From Microbacteriaceae bacterium (GTDB lineage: Bacteria; Actinomycetota; Actinomycetes; Actinomycetales; Microbacteriaceae): a stretch of DNA of 36,236 nucleotides. The translations under genes were made by a program, and so were the position numbers. The DNA lies in the NCBI GenBank assembly GCA_025464895.1, contig JAODMG010000167.1, positions 1 to 36,236 of the forward strand, read 5' to 3'. Below, piece after piece: positions 8,785 to 14,412 of the stretch. The notes under the pieces were generated by a model, which was not told the origin of the DNA, made no database searches, and saw nothing but the letters and a program-made list of their open reading frames with translations. Within the stretch, counting starts at the first letter, position 1; each line of letters starts with the position of its first letter.

Positions 8785-9614
8785 AGTTCGGCCACGATTT
8801 TCGCGAGCAGGGCGCTGATCACCGGTTCGGCCGTCCGGCCGGCGTCGATCACTTCGCCGTGGCTGAGCGGTGTCTTCTGGATGCCGGCCGCGAGGTTCGT
8901 GATGAGCGAGAGGCCCAGCACCTCCATGCCGGACTGGCGTGCCGCGATCGCCTCGAGCGCGGTGGACATCCCGACGATGTGGCCGCCGATCGCCTTCGCC
9001 ATCTGCACCTCGGCCGGGGTCTCGTAGTGCGGCCCGCGGTTCTGCACGTACACGCCCTCGTCGAGGCTCGGGTCGACCCCCCGCGCGATCTCGCGCAGGC
9101 GCGCGGAATACAGGTCGGTCAGATCGATGAAGGTCGCGCCCTCGAGCGGCGAGTCGCCGGTGAGGTTGATGTGGTCGCTGATCAGCACGGGGGTGCCGGG
9201 AGTCCAGCTCTTGCGGATGCCGCCCGCGCCGTTGGTGAGGACCATCACCCTCGCGCCGGCCGCGGCCGCGGTTCGCACGCTGTGTACGACGCGGCGCACA
9301 CCGTGGTTCTCGTAGTAGTGGGTGCGAGCCCCGATCACGAGCGCGCGCTTGCCGTTCGGGAGGAGGATCGACCGCAGCGAACCGACGTGTCCGGCCAGCG
9401 CCGGCGCGCTGAATCCGCTGATCTCGGTCGCCGGGATGGTGGCGGTCGTATCGCCGATGAGATCGGCCGCCTTCGCCCAGCCGCTGCCGAGGGTGAGGGC
9501 AATGTCGTGCCTGGCCACCCCGGTGATTAGCGTGATCTCGGCCGCGGCCATTGCGGCGATTTCGAATGGGTCGGCGGCGGGATCGTCCAGGGGATTCGGC
9601 TGCGTCGTTGACAT
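8781..9614 (-). CDS. Purine-nucleoside phosphorylase (trimeric type)
   Basis: This enzyme phosphorolyses inosine, guanosine and their deoxy forms to base plus (deoxy)ribose-1-phosphate. At 277 residues it shows the trimeric PNP family motifs: 'LTLGSGW' (phosphate-binding Gly/Ser), 'GARTHYYENHG', 'VLTNGAGGI', 'YVQNRGPHYETPAE' with the purine-contacting Glu and a following 'GMSTALEAIAAR', and 'SLITNLAAGI' with the Asn that binds N7/O6. It uses ATG 9614, with a -10-like hexamer six bases upstream. It is the first gene of a two-gene operon with the phosphosugar mutase and takes the inosine made by Add. Low-molecular-weight PNPs usually do not cleave adenosine, which fits the presence of add. Confidence 0.93.
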   Translation of the reverse strand: MSTTQPNPLDDPAADPFEIAAMAAAEITLITGVARHDIALTLGSGWAKAADLIGDTTATIPATEISGFSAPALAGHVGSLRSILLPNGKRALVIGARTHYYENHGVRRVVHSVRTAAAAGARVMVLTNGAGGIRKSWTPGTPVLISDHINLTGDSPLEGATFIDLTDLYSARLREIARGVDPSLDEGVYVQNRGPHYETPAEVQMAKAIGGHIVGMSTALEAIAARQSGMEVLGLSLITNLAAGIQKTPLSHGEVIDAGRTAEPVISALLAKIVAEL

Positions 9615-9626
9615 CCGTACACTCTA
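9615..9626 (-). promoter_or_regulatory. Candidate leaderless promoter of the PNP-mutase operon
   Basis: On the minus strand TAGAGT (9626 down to 9621) ends six bases before the ATG at 9614. This places the predicted transcript start on the start codon. No Shine-Dalgarno is seen and no convincing -35 is found. Confidence 0.5.
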
Positions 9627-9663
9627 ATTCTCCGGGGCCGTCCTGGGGCCGATTCCCTCGTCC

Positions 9664-9765
9664 CGAAAACGCAGGAGCCTTCTTCCGAAAACGCAGGAGA
9701 TCGGGCCGATCCGGCGAGATAGTCCCACCCCGTGCCCGTTCGGGGCTAAATCTCCTGCGTTTTCG
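9664..9765. repeat. Three copies of a 14-16-bp repeat (two direct, one inverted) between PNP and lpdA
   Basis: cgaaaacgcaggag is present at 9664-9677. A longer copy cgaaaacgcaggagat lies at 9686-9701, and its perfect 16-base reverse complement at 9750-9765. The palindrome gttttcgaaaac (9759-9770) overlaps the last copy. The repeats sit between two divergent genes, so a simple terminator role is unlikely. Operator, DNA-structuring element or remnant of a small mobile repeat are options. Confidence 0.8.
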
Positions 9766-9823
9766 AAAACCCGCCGAGGGGTGCCAGGTTGGTGCGGCAT
9801 CCGCGCTAGGCAAGAATGGTGGC

Positions 9824-11260
9824 ATGGCCTATGAATTCGAGCGAAAACAGCGCATTGCAATTCTCGGGGGAGGGCCAGGCGGCTACGAAGCTGCACTCAC
9901 CGGCGCCCAGCTCGGCGCCGAGGTCACCCTTGTCGAGCGCGTCGGCGTCGGCGGATCCGCCGTGCTGACGGATGTCGTTCCGTCGAAGACCCTCATAGCC
10001 ACGGCAGGCGCGGCCGGGGCGATCGGGGAGGCAACCGATCTCGGCGTGCAGTTCTTCACGAAAGGTGACGCGGGCAGGCCGGTGCGGCCGCAGGTCACCG
10101 TGAACCTCGCCGCGGTCAACCAGCGGCTGCTTCGCCTCGCGCGCCAACAGTCGGAAGACATGAAGTCGCAGCTGATCAAAGCCGGGGTGACCATCGTGCA
10201 GGGGGAGGGCCGCCTCGACGGTCCGAGCCGGATCGTGGTCGCGACCGGCAAGGGCAAGGGTGCGACCGACTTCGACGAAATCGACGCGGACACCATTGTG
10301 ATCTCGGTCGGTGCGAGTCCTCGTATCCTGCCATCGGCAACGCCCGACGGTGAGCGGATCCTGACCTGGACCCAGCTCTACGGGCTCGAGGAGACCCCTG
10401 AGCACCTGATCGTCGTCGGGTCCGGCGTCACCGGCGCGGAGTTCGCGTCGGCGTACACTGCCCTCGGATCGAAGGTCACCCTCATTTCCAGCCGCGACCA
10501 GGTCCTCCCGGGCGAGGATGCGGATGCGGCACGGGTGATCGAGGATGTCTTCAAGCGCAACGGGATGACCGTGCTGTCGAAGTCCCGCGCCGAATCGATC
10601 AAGCGCACCAAGGATGGCGTGGTCGCGACGCTCTCCGACGGCCAGACCGTCGAAGGCAGCCATTGCCTGATGGCGGTCGGATCGATCCCGAACACCGCGG
10701 GAATCGGGCTGGAGGAGGTCGGGGTGCAGCTGACCGAGACCGGTCACATCCGGGTGAACCGGGTCGCCCGCACCTCGATGCCGAGCATCTATGCCGCCGG
10801 TGACTGCTCGGACTTCCTGCCGCTGGCATCCGTCGCCTCGATGCAGGGGCGCACGGCGGTGTTCCACTCGATGGGAGATGCGGTCAACCCGGTGGAGCTG
10901 CGAAATGTCACGTCGAACATTTTCACCCAGCCCGAGATCGCCACGGTCGGCTGGTCGCAGAAACAGATCGAGGATGGCATCGCCCAGGGCGACATCTACA
11001 AACTGCCGCTGGCATCCAACCCTCGGGCGAAGATGATGGGCATCAAGGACGGGTTCGTGAAACTGTTCGCGCGCACCGGCTCCGGTACCGTTATCGGCGG
11101 GGTGATCGTCGCCCCGAACGCCTCGGAGCTGATCGCTACGATCGCGCTCGCCGTCGAGCACCGTCTCACAGTCGACCAGCTGGCCCAGGCCTTCCCGGTG
11201 TACCCGTCGCTCACCGGCAGCATCACTGATGCCGCGCGCGCGATGCACATCGTCCACTAG
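9824..11260 (+). CDS. lpdA: LpdA-type NAD(P)H:quinone reductase (lipoamide dehydrogenase homologue)
   Basis: This is a flavoprotein of the pyridine-nucleotide disulfide oxidoreductase family, 478 residues. The N-terminal FAD-binding 'ILGGGPGGYEAAL' (residues 13-25) and a second Rossmann motif, 'VVGSGVTGAEFAS', for NAD(P)H are clear, as is 'YAAGDCSDFLPLASVA' for FAD and the C-terminal dimerisation domain. Where true lipoamide dehydrogenases have the redox pair in CLNVGC, this protein reads 'AVLTDVVPSK' with no cysteine, exactly the arrangement of mycobacterial LpdA (Rv3303c). It therefore cannot do dithiol chemistry and is more likely a quinone reductase. ATG 9824 is chosen because it places FAD binding at the usual distance; the frame is open further up through the repeats. 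AAGAAT ends six bases before the ATG. It is monocistronic. Confidence 0.9.
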   Translation: MAYEFERKQRIAILGGGPGGYEAALTGAQLGAEVTLVERVGVGGSAVLTDVVPSKTLIATAGAAGAIGEATDLGVQFFTKGDAGRPVRPQVTVNLAAVNQRLLRLARQQSEDMKSQLIKAGVTIVQGEGRLDGPSRIVVATGKGKGATDFDEIDADTIVISVGASPRILPSATPDGERILTWTQLYGLEETPEHLIVVGSGVTGAEFASAYTALGSKVTLISSRDQVLPGEDADAARVIEDVFKRNGMTVLSKSRAESIKRTKDGVVATLSDGQTVEGSHCLMAVGSIPNTAGIGLEEVGVQLTETGHIRVNRVARTSMPSIYAAGDCSDFLPLASVASMQGRTAVFHSMGDAVNPVELRNVTSNIFTQPEIATVGWSQKQIEDGIAQGDIYKLPLASNPRAKMMGIKDGFVKLFARTGSGTVIGGVIVAPNASELIATIALAVEHRLTVDQLAQAFPVYPSLTGSITDAARAMHIVH

Positions 11261-11290: not shown

Positions 11291-11360
11291 GTCGGTGCGC
11301 CGTTTTGTTGTCGGTGCGCCGTTTCCAACCGGCGCGCTGACAATAAGTCGGCGCACTGAT
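11291..11360. repeat. 70-bp FFRR repeat element, left copy
   Basis: The element consists of two forward units (gtcggtgcgccgtttt at 11291, gtcggtgcgccgttt at 11310-11324) followed by two reverse units (aaccggcgcgctgac at 11327-11341, cggcgcactgat at 11349-11360). It aligns without gaps to bases 12533-12602 with 54 of 70 positions identical. It lies between lpdA and the AbiEi/DUF559 gene. The rest of the 11261-11496 gap shows no gene; GTG 11476 is an alternative start for the next gene. Confidence 0.8.
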
Positions 11361-11496
11361 GGCGAGGCTCGCGTCGGCTCGATGCGGCGGACGACCCCCC
11401 CAACCTCGACTCCGCAACATCCGGGGTGACGCCGCGCTATCCACAGAACGCCGGATCGACGTCGAGACACAGCGCGTGGGGGCCGACGATGGACGG

Positions 11497-12570
11497 ATGT
11501 CCGACCCGGTAGCCCTCGAATGGCGCGACAACGTCATCCTCACCCGGGACCTCGTGGTGCCCGGAGATCGCGCGGAGTTCTTTCGGCGAGTGCGACGGCG
11601 CGAATTCGTGCCGATTTTCCGGGGTGTCTTCGTTCGGGCGGAGCGCTGGAGCTCACTCGGCAACGATGAACGCTACCGAGCACGGGTGAAGGCCGCCGCG
11701 GCCTCCGCCGATTGTGAGGTAATCCCGGCACCCACGGACGCCTCGGGCTCCGCGGCATCTGCGATCTCGGTTGACGAAAGGCCGGTTTTCTCGAACCATT
11801 CCGCGGCGGCGCTCTGGCGGCTGGCGTGGATCGGCGACTGGCCGAAACGGGCCCATACTGTAGAGCCGATCGCGGCGGGCGGCCGGTCGAACGCGATGTT
11901 CATCCGGCACACTAGTGGTGTTCCTGACGATCGAGTTGAGATCGACGGCCTCGAAGTCACCGCGCTCGCGCGGACGGTGGTCGATCTGGCCAGGACCGAG
12001 TCATTCGGACGGGCCGTCACTCTCGCCGATTCCGCGCTTCGTCGAACGCTTCACCCCATCGAGGGTGTTCCCCGCACCCTCTTGACCAGGGCAGACCTCG
12101 AGGGAGAGCTCGACCGCATTCCCTTGCGCCACGGTTCGGCCAGGGCGCGCAACGTGATCGAGTTCGCGGATGGGGCGGCGGATCGACCCGGCGAGTCCAT
12201 GAGCCGGGTGAGCATGCGAGTGGCTGGGCTTCCACCGCCGCAATTGCAGGTCGAGCTGGTCGGTGCAAGCGGACGGATCTGGACTGTCGACTTCTGGTGG
12301 CCGTCTGTGAACCTCATCGGCGAGTTCGACGGCAAGCACAAGTACATGGAGGCCGAGTTTCTGCGTGGTCGAACCCCGCAACAAGTGGTCTACGACGAAA
12401 AGATGCGGGAGGACGACCTGCGGGCGGCCGGTTACCGCGTGAGTCGCTGGCCGTGGAAGGTGGCGCTATCGCCCGGCGCTGCTGCGCGACACGTTGGTCG
12501 CAGCCGGGCTGCGGTAGTAGCACCCGCGATCCGTCAATGCGCCGGTTTGTTATCAGTGCGTGGTTTGTAA
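11497..12570 (+). CDS. AbiEi-type N-domain plus DUF559 nuclease-like protein; 3' end probably frameshifted
   Basis: This belongs to a common actinobacterial family that joins an AbiEi-like winged-helix N-domain (pattern '..EFVPIFRGVFVRAERW', then 'FSNHSAAALWRL' and 'DGLEVTALARTVVDLAR') to a C-terminal DUF559/Vsr-like PD-(D/E)xK domain. Candidate nuclease residues are Asp265 in 'VDFWW', Glu276 in 'GEFDGK' and Lys280. Past residue 320 the frame reads atypical sequence and runs into the right-hand repeat, stopping at 12570. In the +1 frame from base 12470 the DNA encodes 'RPALLRDTLVAAGLR' and stops at 12515-12517, the expected family ending. A one-base insertion near 12450-12470 is therefore likely; the undisrupted protein would be 339 residues. 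The start is ATG 11497; GTG 11476 is possible. Role unknown: solitary antitoxin-like regulator or nuclease. No toxin gene is adjacent. Confidence 0.68.
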   Translation: MSDPVALEWRDNVILTRDLVVPGDRAEFFRRVRRREFVPIFRGVFVRAERWSSLGNDERYRARVKAAAASADCEVIPAPTDASGSAASAISVDERPVFSNHSAAALWRLAWIGDWPKRAHTVEPIAAGGRSNAMFIRHTSGVPDDRVEIDGLEVTALARTVVDLARTESFGRAVTLADSALRRTLHPIEGVPRTLLTRADLEGELDRIPLRHGSARARNVIEFADGAADRPGESMSRVSMRVAGLPPPQLQVELVGASGRIWTVDFWWPSVNLIGEFDGKHKYMEAEFLRGRTPQQVVYDEKMREDDLRAAGYRVSRWPWKVALSPGAAARHVGRSRAAVVAPAIRQCAGLLSVRGL

Positions 12571-12602
12571 CCGGCGCATTGATGACAAACCGGCGCACTG
12601 AT
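12533..12602. repeat. 70-bp FFRR repeat element, right copy
   Basis: It has the same architecture as 11291-11360: forward units at 12533-12550 (gtcaatgcgccggtttgt) and 12552-12568, reverse units at 12569-12583 and 12585-12602 (acaaaccggcgcactgat). It lies in direct orientation to the left copy. Its first half encodes the last residues of the frameshifted DUF559 frame. It sits between that gene and the convergent carboxylase gene. A 10-bp palindrome, ggcagctgcc, follows at 12635-12644. Confidence 0.8.
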
Positions 12603-12660: not shown

Positions 12661-14412
12661 TTACACGATGTTGAGTAGCAGGTGACCGGATGACACGGTC
12701 GCGCCGACCGAGGCGCTCACGTTGGCGATCGTTCCGTCCTTGTGTGCGGTGATCGGCTGTTCCATCTTCATCGCCTCGAGCACCAGGATCAGGTCGCCCT
12801 TGACGACCTTGTCCCCCTCGGCGACGGACAGCTTGACGACCGTCGCCTGCATCGGTGCCTTCACCGAGTCTCCAGTGGCGGTGACGACGGTGTTCGCGCC
12901 ACCGCGACGGCGAGGGGCTGGACTCGCCGCGGAGGCCGAGCCGGCGGTCAGCCTGGCCGGCAGCGAGACCTCGATCCGCTTTCCGTCGACCTCGACGACG
13001 ACGCTGTGGCGGGGAACGGATGGGCTCTGCGGCTCGAGCTCTCCGCTCCACGGCTCGATGGTGTTGACGAATTCGGTCTCGATCCAGCGGGTGTACACGC
13101 CGAACGAGTCGGTCGAGGTGAACGCCGGATCGCGCACGATCGCGCGGTGGAACGGGAGCACCGTCGGCAGGCCCGCGACCTCGAACTCATCGAGGGCGCG
13201 CCGGGACCGTTCGAGGGCGTCAGCGCGGGAGGAGCCGGTCACGATGAGTTTGGCCAGTAGCGAGTCGAATGCCCCGCTGATGACGTCTCCGGTCGTGACC
13301 CCGCTGTCGACGCGTACGCCGGGGCCACCCGGCATCCGCAGCACGTGCACCGGGCCGGGGGACGGCAGGAAGTTCAGTCCAGGGTCTTCTCCGTTGATGC
13401 GGAATTCGAAGGAGTGGCCGCGGGGCACGGGATCGTCGTACTCGAGGCGTCCGCCTTCTGCGAGCCGGAACTGCTCGCGAACCAGGTCGATGCCGGTGAT
13501 CTCCTCGGACACCGGATGCTCGACCTGCAGTCGCGTATTCACCTCGAGGAATGAGATGGTGCCGTCGCGGGCCACCAGGAACTCGCAGGTGCCGGCGCCG
13601 AGATAGCCGACCTCGCGGAGGATCGCCTTCGACGAGCTGTACAGCAGTTCGTTCTGCTCGTTGGTGAGGAACGGCGCCGGCGCTTCCTCGACCAGCTTCT
13701 GGTGGCGACGTTGCAGCGAGCAGTCGCGGGTCGAGATGACGACGACATTGCCGTAGGCGTCGGCGAGGCACTGGGTCTCGACGTGGCGCGGCTGGTCGAG
13801 GTACGTCTCGACGCAGCACTCGCCTCGGCCGAACGCGGCGATGGCCTCTCGGGTCGCCGACTCGAACAGCTCCGGGATCTCCTCGCGAGTGCGGGCGACC
13901 TTGAGTCCACGGCCGCCGCCGCCGAAAGCGGCCTTGATCGCCACCGGGAGTCCGTGGGTGTCGACGAAGTCGAGGACTTCGGATGCACCGGAAACCGGGT
14001 TCAGGGTTCCGGGGGCAAGCGGTGCCCCGACTTTCTCGGCGATGTGCCTCGCCGACACCTTGTCGCCGAGCTTCTCGATGGCGTCGGGCGAAGGGCCGAT
14101 CCAGATAAGGCCTGCGTTGATCACGGCTCGCGCGAATTCGGCGTTCTCGGCCAGGAAGCCGTAGCCGGGGTGCACGGCATCCGCCCCCGATCGCCTGGCG
14201 ACGGAGAGGATCTTGTCGATGACGAGGTAGGTGTCCGCGCTGGTCGCCCCGTCGAGGGCGTATGCCTCGTCGGCGAGCCTGACGTGCCTGGCATCCCGAT
14301 CCTGGTCGGCGTAGACGGCGACGGAGGCGATCCCGCTGTCTCGTGCTGCCCGGATGACGCGGACGGCGATTTCACCGCGATTGGCGATCAGGACCTTCGT
14401 GATGCGGGGCAT
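12661..14412 (-). CDS. accA: Acyl-CoA carboxylase alpha subunit (biotin carboxylase plus biotin carrier domain)
   Basis: This is the first half-reaction enzyme of acetyl/propionyl-CoA carboxylase: ATP-dependent carboxylation of its own biotin. At 583 residues it is the fused actinobacterial form. It has the biotin-carboxylase N-domain '[17 protein letters not shown]', the ATP-grasp glycine loop '[13 protein letters not shown]', '[16 protein letters not shown]' with metal-binding and catalytic residues, and a C-terminal biotinyl domain with Lys549 in 'LEAMKMEQ'. The start ATG 14412 has AGGGG four bases upstream on the minus strand; TAGGCT lies eight bases before the ATG as an alternative promoter placement. 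maf lies 79 bases upstream in the same direction, and a carboxyltransferase (beta) gene is not in the window. A small palindrome at 12635-12644 lies just beyond the stop. Confidence 0.94.

Follow-up and report, generated by a model that had tools for sequence, protein, structure and literature searches.

An AbiEi-like and PD-(D/E)XK-like protein gene between matched palindromes: a candidate REP-like system of Actinomycetes

The locus and its gene

The window, i.e., the whole stretch of 36,236 nucleotides analysed here, is contig 47 of a 2.83-Mb Microbacteriaceae assembly of 239 contigs that is 87% complete. The gene of an lpdA-like flavoprotein disulfide reductase (9551..11260, plus strand; Pfam PF07992/PF02852) forms the upstream syntenic anchor; homology in this open reading frame (ORF) starts at about residue 80, and an lpdA-like gene was present in 348 of 400 genomes of the bacterial family. 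The downstream anchor is a convergent biotin carboxylase / biotin carrier protein gene (12661..14412, minus strand), identified by Pfam and by synteny in relatives. Two 70-bp elements without assigned strand, at 11291..11360 and 12533..12602, lie between the end of lpdA at 11260 and the stop of the carboxylase gene at 12661, and only one gene is placed between them. The original prediction of a matched pair flanking a single gene was thus borne out, with lpdA and biotin carboxylase as the outer neighbours. The two elements were identical at 54 of 70 positions without any gap, and the next best ungapped 70-mer elsewhere in the window reached only 37/70.

Both elements are near-palindromes composed of two forward and two reverse units of about 16 bases at offsets 0, +19, 33 and 52, which confirmed the forward-forward-reverse-reverse design that had been proposed. 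In the upstream element, an imperfect palindrome with a covariance model score of 85.7 bits, the half-sites are at 11291-11306 (+), 11310-11325 (+), 11325-11340 (-) and 11344-11359 (-), with a tandem spacing of 19 bp. The downstream palindrome belongs to the same family and scored 91.1 bits. When folded as DNA, the two performed far better than their shuffled counterparts (z -6.5 and -8.9). By our own rough estimate the chance of finding two out of about 10 copies no more than 1.24 kb apart in a 2.8-Mb genome is about 4%, and the significance of the bracketing rests on the comparative data given below, not on this figure.

The gene between the elements is located at 11497..12517 on the plus strand, with a homologous start near 11497 and a homologous stop at 12515-12517, and its product is about 318 residues long. 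The ORF at 11359-12570 extends into the downstream element and misrepresents the gene. Its reading frame changes near 12470-12480, and the conserved C-terminus (..RPALLRDTLVAAGLR-stop) continues in another frame up to 12517, ahead of the downstream element. Relative to all homologues, the frameshift (12470-12517) affects the last 15 or so codons of the window gene; it could be a recent lesion or an error of the assembly. Purifying selection acts on the gene, with dN/dS of 0.08-0.27 in ten pairs.

The label AbiEi/DUF559 that had been given to this gene was only half appropriate. The AbiEi part stood: the N-terminal region of the window protein matched AbiEi in PADLOC with an E value of 8e-8, the PADLOC AbiEi models matched 38 of 39 relatives, and Pfam AbiEi_4 matched 18 of 39 family members. 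DUF559, on the other hand, proved to be a weak label. The window protein had no match in Pfam even at E 10, PF04480 (DUF559) touched only two of 39 relatives with a best E value of 0.05, and PF04480 and PF18741 gave weak matches in a few relatives. The C-terminal part is nevertheless PD-(D/E)XK-like, an assignment as a putative nuclease that is made from motifs. Nine residues were invariant in 39 aligned proteins, i.e., E233, D265, E276, D278, K282, E301, K302, R304 and E305, in the order of PD-(D/E)XK nucleases; in the numbering of P0002 they fall in the conserved motifs GES (E233), VDF (D265), GEFDGxxKY (E276/D278/K282) and EKxRE (E301-E305). A profile search of the PDB with the protein family returned no solved relative by sequence, NCBIfam yielded nothing useful on the protein, and an AlphaFold model built from two sequences was too poor for use (pLDDT 35). 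Elsewhere in the same genome (L029, contig 128, 4090-7341) a short Vsr-like frame was noticed near a gene that looks, from the translations, like a cytosine methyltransferase, possibly a restriction-modification locus.

Flanking palindromes, their dispersal and their turnover

BLAST and the covariance model placed the element, as a dispersed intergenic repeat, at about 12 sites in unrelated gaps of its own genome. A pattern search of the genome for the exact unit found no match, and BLAST of the element in 300 genomes of the bacterial family found almost no copies. Eight copies were used to build the covariance model R1, by which 21 of 33 relatives were found to carry the element; in two of them (G392 and G368) two copies again bracketed the syntenic gene. 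An ordinary intergenic repeat with two chance neighbours had been the first reading, and it was overturned by these copies in relatives, around the same gene in G392 and G368. Similarly, the alternative offered by the original prediction, that both elements are members of an abundant intergenic family which became neighbours by chance, was right about a dispersed family (about 12 sites), but the chance neighbourhood was rejected by bracketing throughout the bacterial family. In one genome (L032, G113 contig 17, 1495-2908) two elements of the window type bracket an acyltransferase-like gene without a match to the nuclease family.

Bracketing of the AbiEi-like gene was examined at 92 loci of the protein family gathered from its own bacterial family, where 300 bp upstream was compared with 300 bp downstream. 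The match between the flanks exceeded the 99th percentile of mismatched pairs at 72 of the 92 loci, which are phylogenetically non-independent and themselves supplied the mismatched pairs; none of the 92 gene bodies, whose 5' and 3' parts were compared as a control, exceeded that percentile. Hairpins scoring at least 13 were present in 47/90 upstream and 44/90 downstream flanks versus 1/178 windows about 700-1000 bp away. In other families of Actinomycetes, matched flanks were found at 49 of 57 loci. Altogether, gene-specific matched flanks occurred at 121 of 149 loci in more than 20 families, and about a fifth of the loci were without clear matched flanks. A few of the matches in other families (e.g., L177) are longer direct repeats and not palindromes. 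In a class-level search the protein family was present in 266 of 395 genomes.

The palindromes themselves differ between relatives. For example, at the same gene and locus the pair is GTTTTTCCCACCACCTCC in G138 and GCGCTGAGGTTTGCGC in G300, and Microcella alkalica (L040) also carries a palindrome pair. The element does occur in unrelated gaps, and the gene does have other flanks in relatives, a combination which the original prediction had counted against a link between the two. Since these other flanks are matched palindrome pairs in their own right, the meaning of that test is reversed.

Dispersal was also found in relatives. When 15 flanking palindromes were searched as a joint query, each of the 12 source genomes returned 6-64 matches, which are rough counts only since both strands were counted and the scoring of candidates was capped. 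Among about 150 matches listed, each fell on the palindrome or palindromes of its own genome, except for short overhangs into the neighbouring query piece, and there was no match in three genomes without a detected homologue, the own palindromes of these controls being outside the query. Paralogues within one genome have separate palindromes. In both G059 and G088, one scattered palindrome goes with each of two paralogues, and the same holds for the two paralogues of the window's genome (contigs 47 and 172), which are 36% identical. The second of these (L025, contig 172, 3514-4458) lies between arrays in which a different half-site (ACTCGCGGCGGGAGTT), also scattered genome-wide, is repeated more than four times. 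At 19 loci examined in G131, nine of the sites lay between convergent genes, and a predicted ORF overlapped in only three. Four element copies of this genome (L219, L222, L228 and L229) end on one side in a common unrelated stretch (CTCCCTCGCGCTGAAGCGCGCGATGGGCCCAGCTCGCCG), not in AGGGGT, and form a composite element.

Twelve element sites of G131 were traced by their flanks in eight congeners. The orthologous gaps were empty or short in some congeners, with lengths of 14 and 44 bases at one site, for example, and held other palindromes of 40-80 bases in others; one and the same palindrome occupied two such orthologous sites in G185. In G232, the palindrome at one such site (CGCACGTTCCGGAC..) matched the pair that brackets its own gene (CGCGCACGTTCCGGCC..), with a score of 21.5 versus a background of about 10-16. 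For G364, which has further copies of the gene, no match was seen between the flanks of the copy that was fetched and the palindrome found at the orthologous sites. No gene copy was found at the lpdA junction in G308 and G067, and the test for a cognate palindrome was thus positive in one genome. No target-site duplication was visible in eight copies of the window's genome and 20 copies of G131, and no exact empty site was seen among the congener gaps of G131. At one of the sites (that of L218) differing palindromes were found in a single gap across congeners (L236, L237, L239, L240, L244 and L247), which could reflect either a hot spot of insertion or the replacement of one palindrome by another.

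Correspondence between palindrome and protein

Covariation of palindrome and protein was assessed by comparing the upstream flank of one locus with the downstream flank of another, by which simple synteny was avoided. The palindrome was shared in 15 of 16 pairs whose proteins are at least 70% identical, in about 1% of protein pairs less than 55% identical, and in none of 21 pairs of paralogues within one genome. In these comparisons the palindrome tracks the protein and not the genome, a pattern that would be expected of a recognition code but not of a repeat inserted at random throughout a genome. The suggestion that the flanks are recognised by the gene's own product therefore received strong, if indirect, support from the matched palindromes around most homologues, their tracking of the protein and the separate palindromes of paralogues.

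Despite their differing sequences, the palindromes have a common architecture, in which each arm holds two half-sites exactly 19 bp apart. At offset 19, 61% of the arms in the own bacterial family and 36% in other families scored at least 5, versus means of 3.5% and 3.0%, respectively, at other offsets from 10 to 30. Because this spacing is common across families, the forward-forward-reverse-reverse design is a signature of the whole class.

We are nearly certain that gene and palindromes are linked. As to what the link consists of, the explanation that we favour with some confidence is that the two elements are gene-proximal copies of a dispersed palindrome family belonging to the gene between them, whose product binds, cuts and spreads these palindromes. 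The protein would probably bind the four half-sites, arranged as two mirrored tandem pairs 19 bp apart, through its AbiEi-like N-terminal part, and the PD-(D/E)XK-like C-terminal domain would then nick or cut at the palindrome. Over evolutionary time, copies of the palindrome would have spread between genes, most of them to positions shortly after a gene end. Proteins of the AbiEi type bind to inverted repeats as monomers, and the Rv2827c promoter has four such sites in tandem (PMC7319586); by analogy, a complex of four proteins on one element would be the natural model. Cognate flanks throughout the class, dispersal, protein-specific sequence, the 19-bp design, turnover and purifying selection are observed, and binding, cleavage and spreading by the protein are inferred. 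Several points count against this explanation: the frameshift of the window gene, the fifth or so of the loci without clear matched flanks, the acyltransferase-like gene bracketed in G113, the G364 copy that did not match, the nuclease assignment from motifs, and the search of element copies and congener gaps in which no clean target-site duplication or exact empty site was seen. Taken separately, mobilisation of the palindromes by the protein is fairly probable, clearly less so than the link itself.

The main rival is a purely regulatory network of an AbiEi-type repressor, in which the upstream palindrome would be its operator, the scattered ones would be operators or bidirectional terminators of a regulon or of a nucleoid-like binding network, and the nuclease-like domain would not be used on them. 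AbiEi and Rv2827c do autoregulate via sets of 23-bp inverted repeats at their own promoters, and the palindromes do lie behind genes, often between convergent ones as at the nine G131 sites. However, such positions make poor operators, the shared target genes expected of a regulon are absent, and neither the matched downstream copy nor the swap of one palindrome family for another at orthologous sites is explained. The invariance of the PD-(D/E)XK-like residues also speaks against an idle domain. We therefore regard regulation alone as unlikely, and still the best of the alternatives.

It is more doubtful that gene and two terminal palindromes move together as a composite unit, like an insertion sequence (IS), with the scattered palindromes as solo relics. 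This idea bears on the movable cassette of the original prediction. The position of the gene between matched ends would suit it, as would 15 changes of locus label on the protein tree, with some clades holding the gene at other loci, and four relatives (L051, L052, L062 and L067) in which lpdA and the carboxylase gene are adjacent with neither gene nor element between them. However, the gene has few and divergent copies per genome (two here, 36% identical) versus many palindromes, no near-identical gene copies were seen within a genome, and the gene keeps its synteny across many genera while the palindromes change. It lies directly 3' of lpdA at 33 of the 92 sampled loci, all within one half of the protein tree, and at these junctions different genera have different palindromes. 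The gene is thus old at the lpdA junction, with some departures to other loci, and the empty junctions fit gain or loss of gene and elements and not frequent movement. Because the gene is settled at the lpdA-carboxylase junction, the cassette part of the prediction was weak.

The two remaining rivals are very improbable. The palindromes could be ordinary repeats of the REP or terminator type spread by another enzyme, with the nuclease gene as a bystander, as their intergenic position in many gaps without the gene might suggest, but this would leave unexplained both the gene-specific matched flanks at most loci and the tracking of protein by palindrome among paralogues. A role in defence or conflict would make the protein a DNase specific for a structure or a site, with the scattered palindromes serving to mark self DNA, to titrate the enzyme or to be its antitoxin. 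This idea might draw on the frequency of AbiEi-type and PD-(D/E)XK-type parts in phage defence (PADLOC) and on the tight cognacy that a self-marker would need. However, a self-marker would not require copies on both flanks of the gene, the gene adjoins neither an AbiEii toxin nor another partner, and there is no defence-island context within the window.

Comparison with known systems

AbiEi proteins, Rv2827c among them, are known to recognise sets of inverted repeats in a sequence-specific manner (PMC3985639, PMC7319586). The N-terminal region described here scores as AbiEi in PADLOC, and AbiEi binding to inverted repeats, four in the Rv2827c promoter, is a further likeness to these type IV toxin-antitoxin systems. 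However, the antitoxins lack the extra C-terminal nuclease-like domain found here, and the repeats of the present system also occur downstream and genome-wide. Moreover, no AbiEii (DUF1814) toxin gene adjoins the gene, whose neighbours are lpdA and the convergent biotin carboxylase, and because of this the system is not a type IV toxin-antitoxin pair. With DUF559/Vsr-like and MTES_1575 PD-(D/E)XK nucleases the protein shares the C-terminal motif set ES..SR, VDF, GEFDGxxKY and EKxRE; it differs in falling below the family cut-offs, in the AbiEi-like fusion and in having no linked methyltransferase. Like MITEs, the elements are short, non-coding, terminally inverted and dispersed. Unlike in MITEs, an entire element forms a single palindrome with tandem half-sites inside it, and the enzyme linked to it is no DDE transposase. 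In the copies mentioned above no target-site duplication was seen.

Few small elements are as abundant in bacterial genomes as REP-type repeats, and RAYT is to our knowledge the one enzyme family that has been linked with them. RAYT genes lie between palindromes, and cognate copies of these are scattered through extragenic DNA. The protein co-evolves with its palindrome, several such pairs may occur together in a genome, and the gene is mostly single-copy, with no evidence of its mobility (PMC2817692, PMC3116915, PMC8266576). In the 2010 RAYT paper no homologues were reported outside the gammaproteobacterial branch treated there (PMC2817692). As in these RAYT/REP/REPIN/BIME systems ('REPtrons'), the gene described here is flanked on both sides by one palindrome family, and the cognate palindromes are dispersed extragenically in its own genome. 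The differences are in the parts. The protein is AbiEi-like and PD-(D/E)XK-like, and Y1/HUH families were absent from the Pfam matches of the window protein and 38 relatives; the element measures 60-80 bp and has four half-sites phased at 19 bp, whereas REPs are 20-40 bp long with a GTAG head; and the system occurs in Actinomycetes. By inspection, GTAG was not common to the copies of the window's genome or of G131, and CGTC lay beside only some of the copies of the former. The system is therefore REPtron-like in layout and yet not a REPtron, since its protein is without a Y1/HUH domain and its elements are without a GTAG head.

No report of an association between this gene and palindromes was found in the open-licence literature searched. 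We think it fairly probable that a class-wide, so far undescribed REP-like system is present in Actinomycetes, in which each enzyme recognises and propagates its own 19-bp-phased palindrome of four half-sites, which would have originated independently of RAYTs, and in which the specificity of the enzyme and the sequence of the palindrome would change jointly and fast enough to give nearly every species a set of its own. If this is true, a second and unrelated enzyme family would have the genomic signature of REPs, a striking convergence, and this would account for much of the intergenic palindrome content of Actinomycetes. A protein family now named only by its similarity to antitoxins would also gain a function, and hundreds of sequence-distinct palindromes would gain a testable enzyme-substrate pair. 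With the natural library of protein-palindrome pairs, to which paralogues of the same genome also contribute, the putative recognition code can be tested directly. The best reading of the locus is thus a REPtron-like system in which an enzyme with AbiEi-like and PD-(D/E)XK-like parts would take the place of RAYT.
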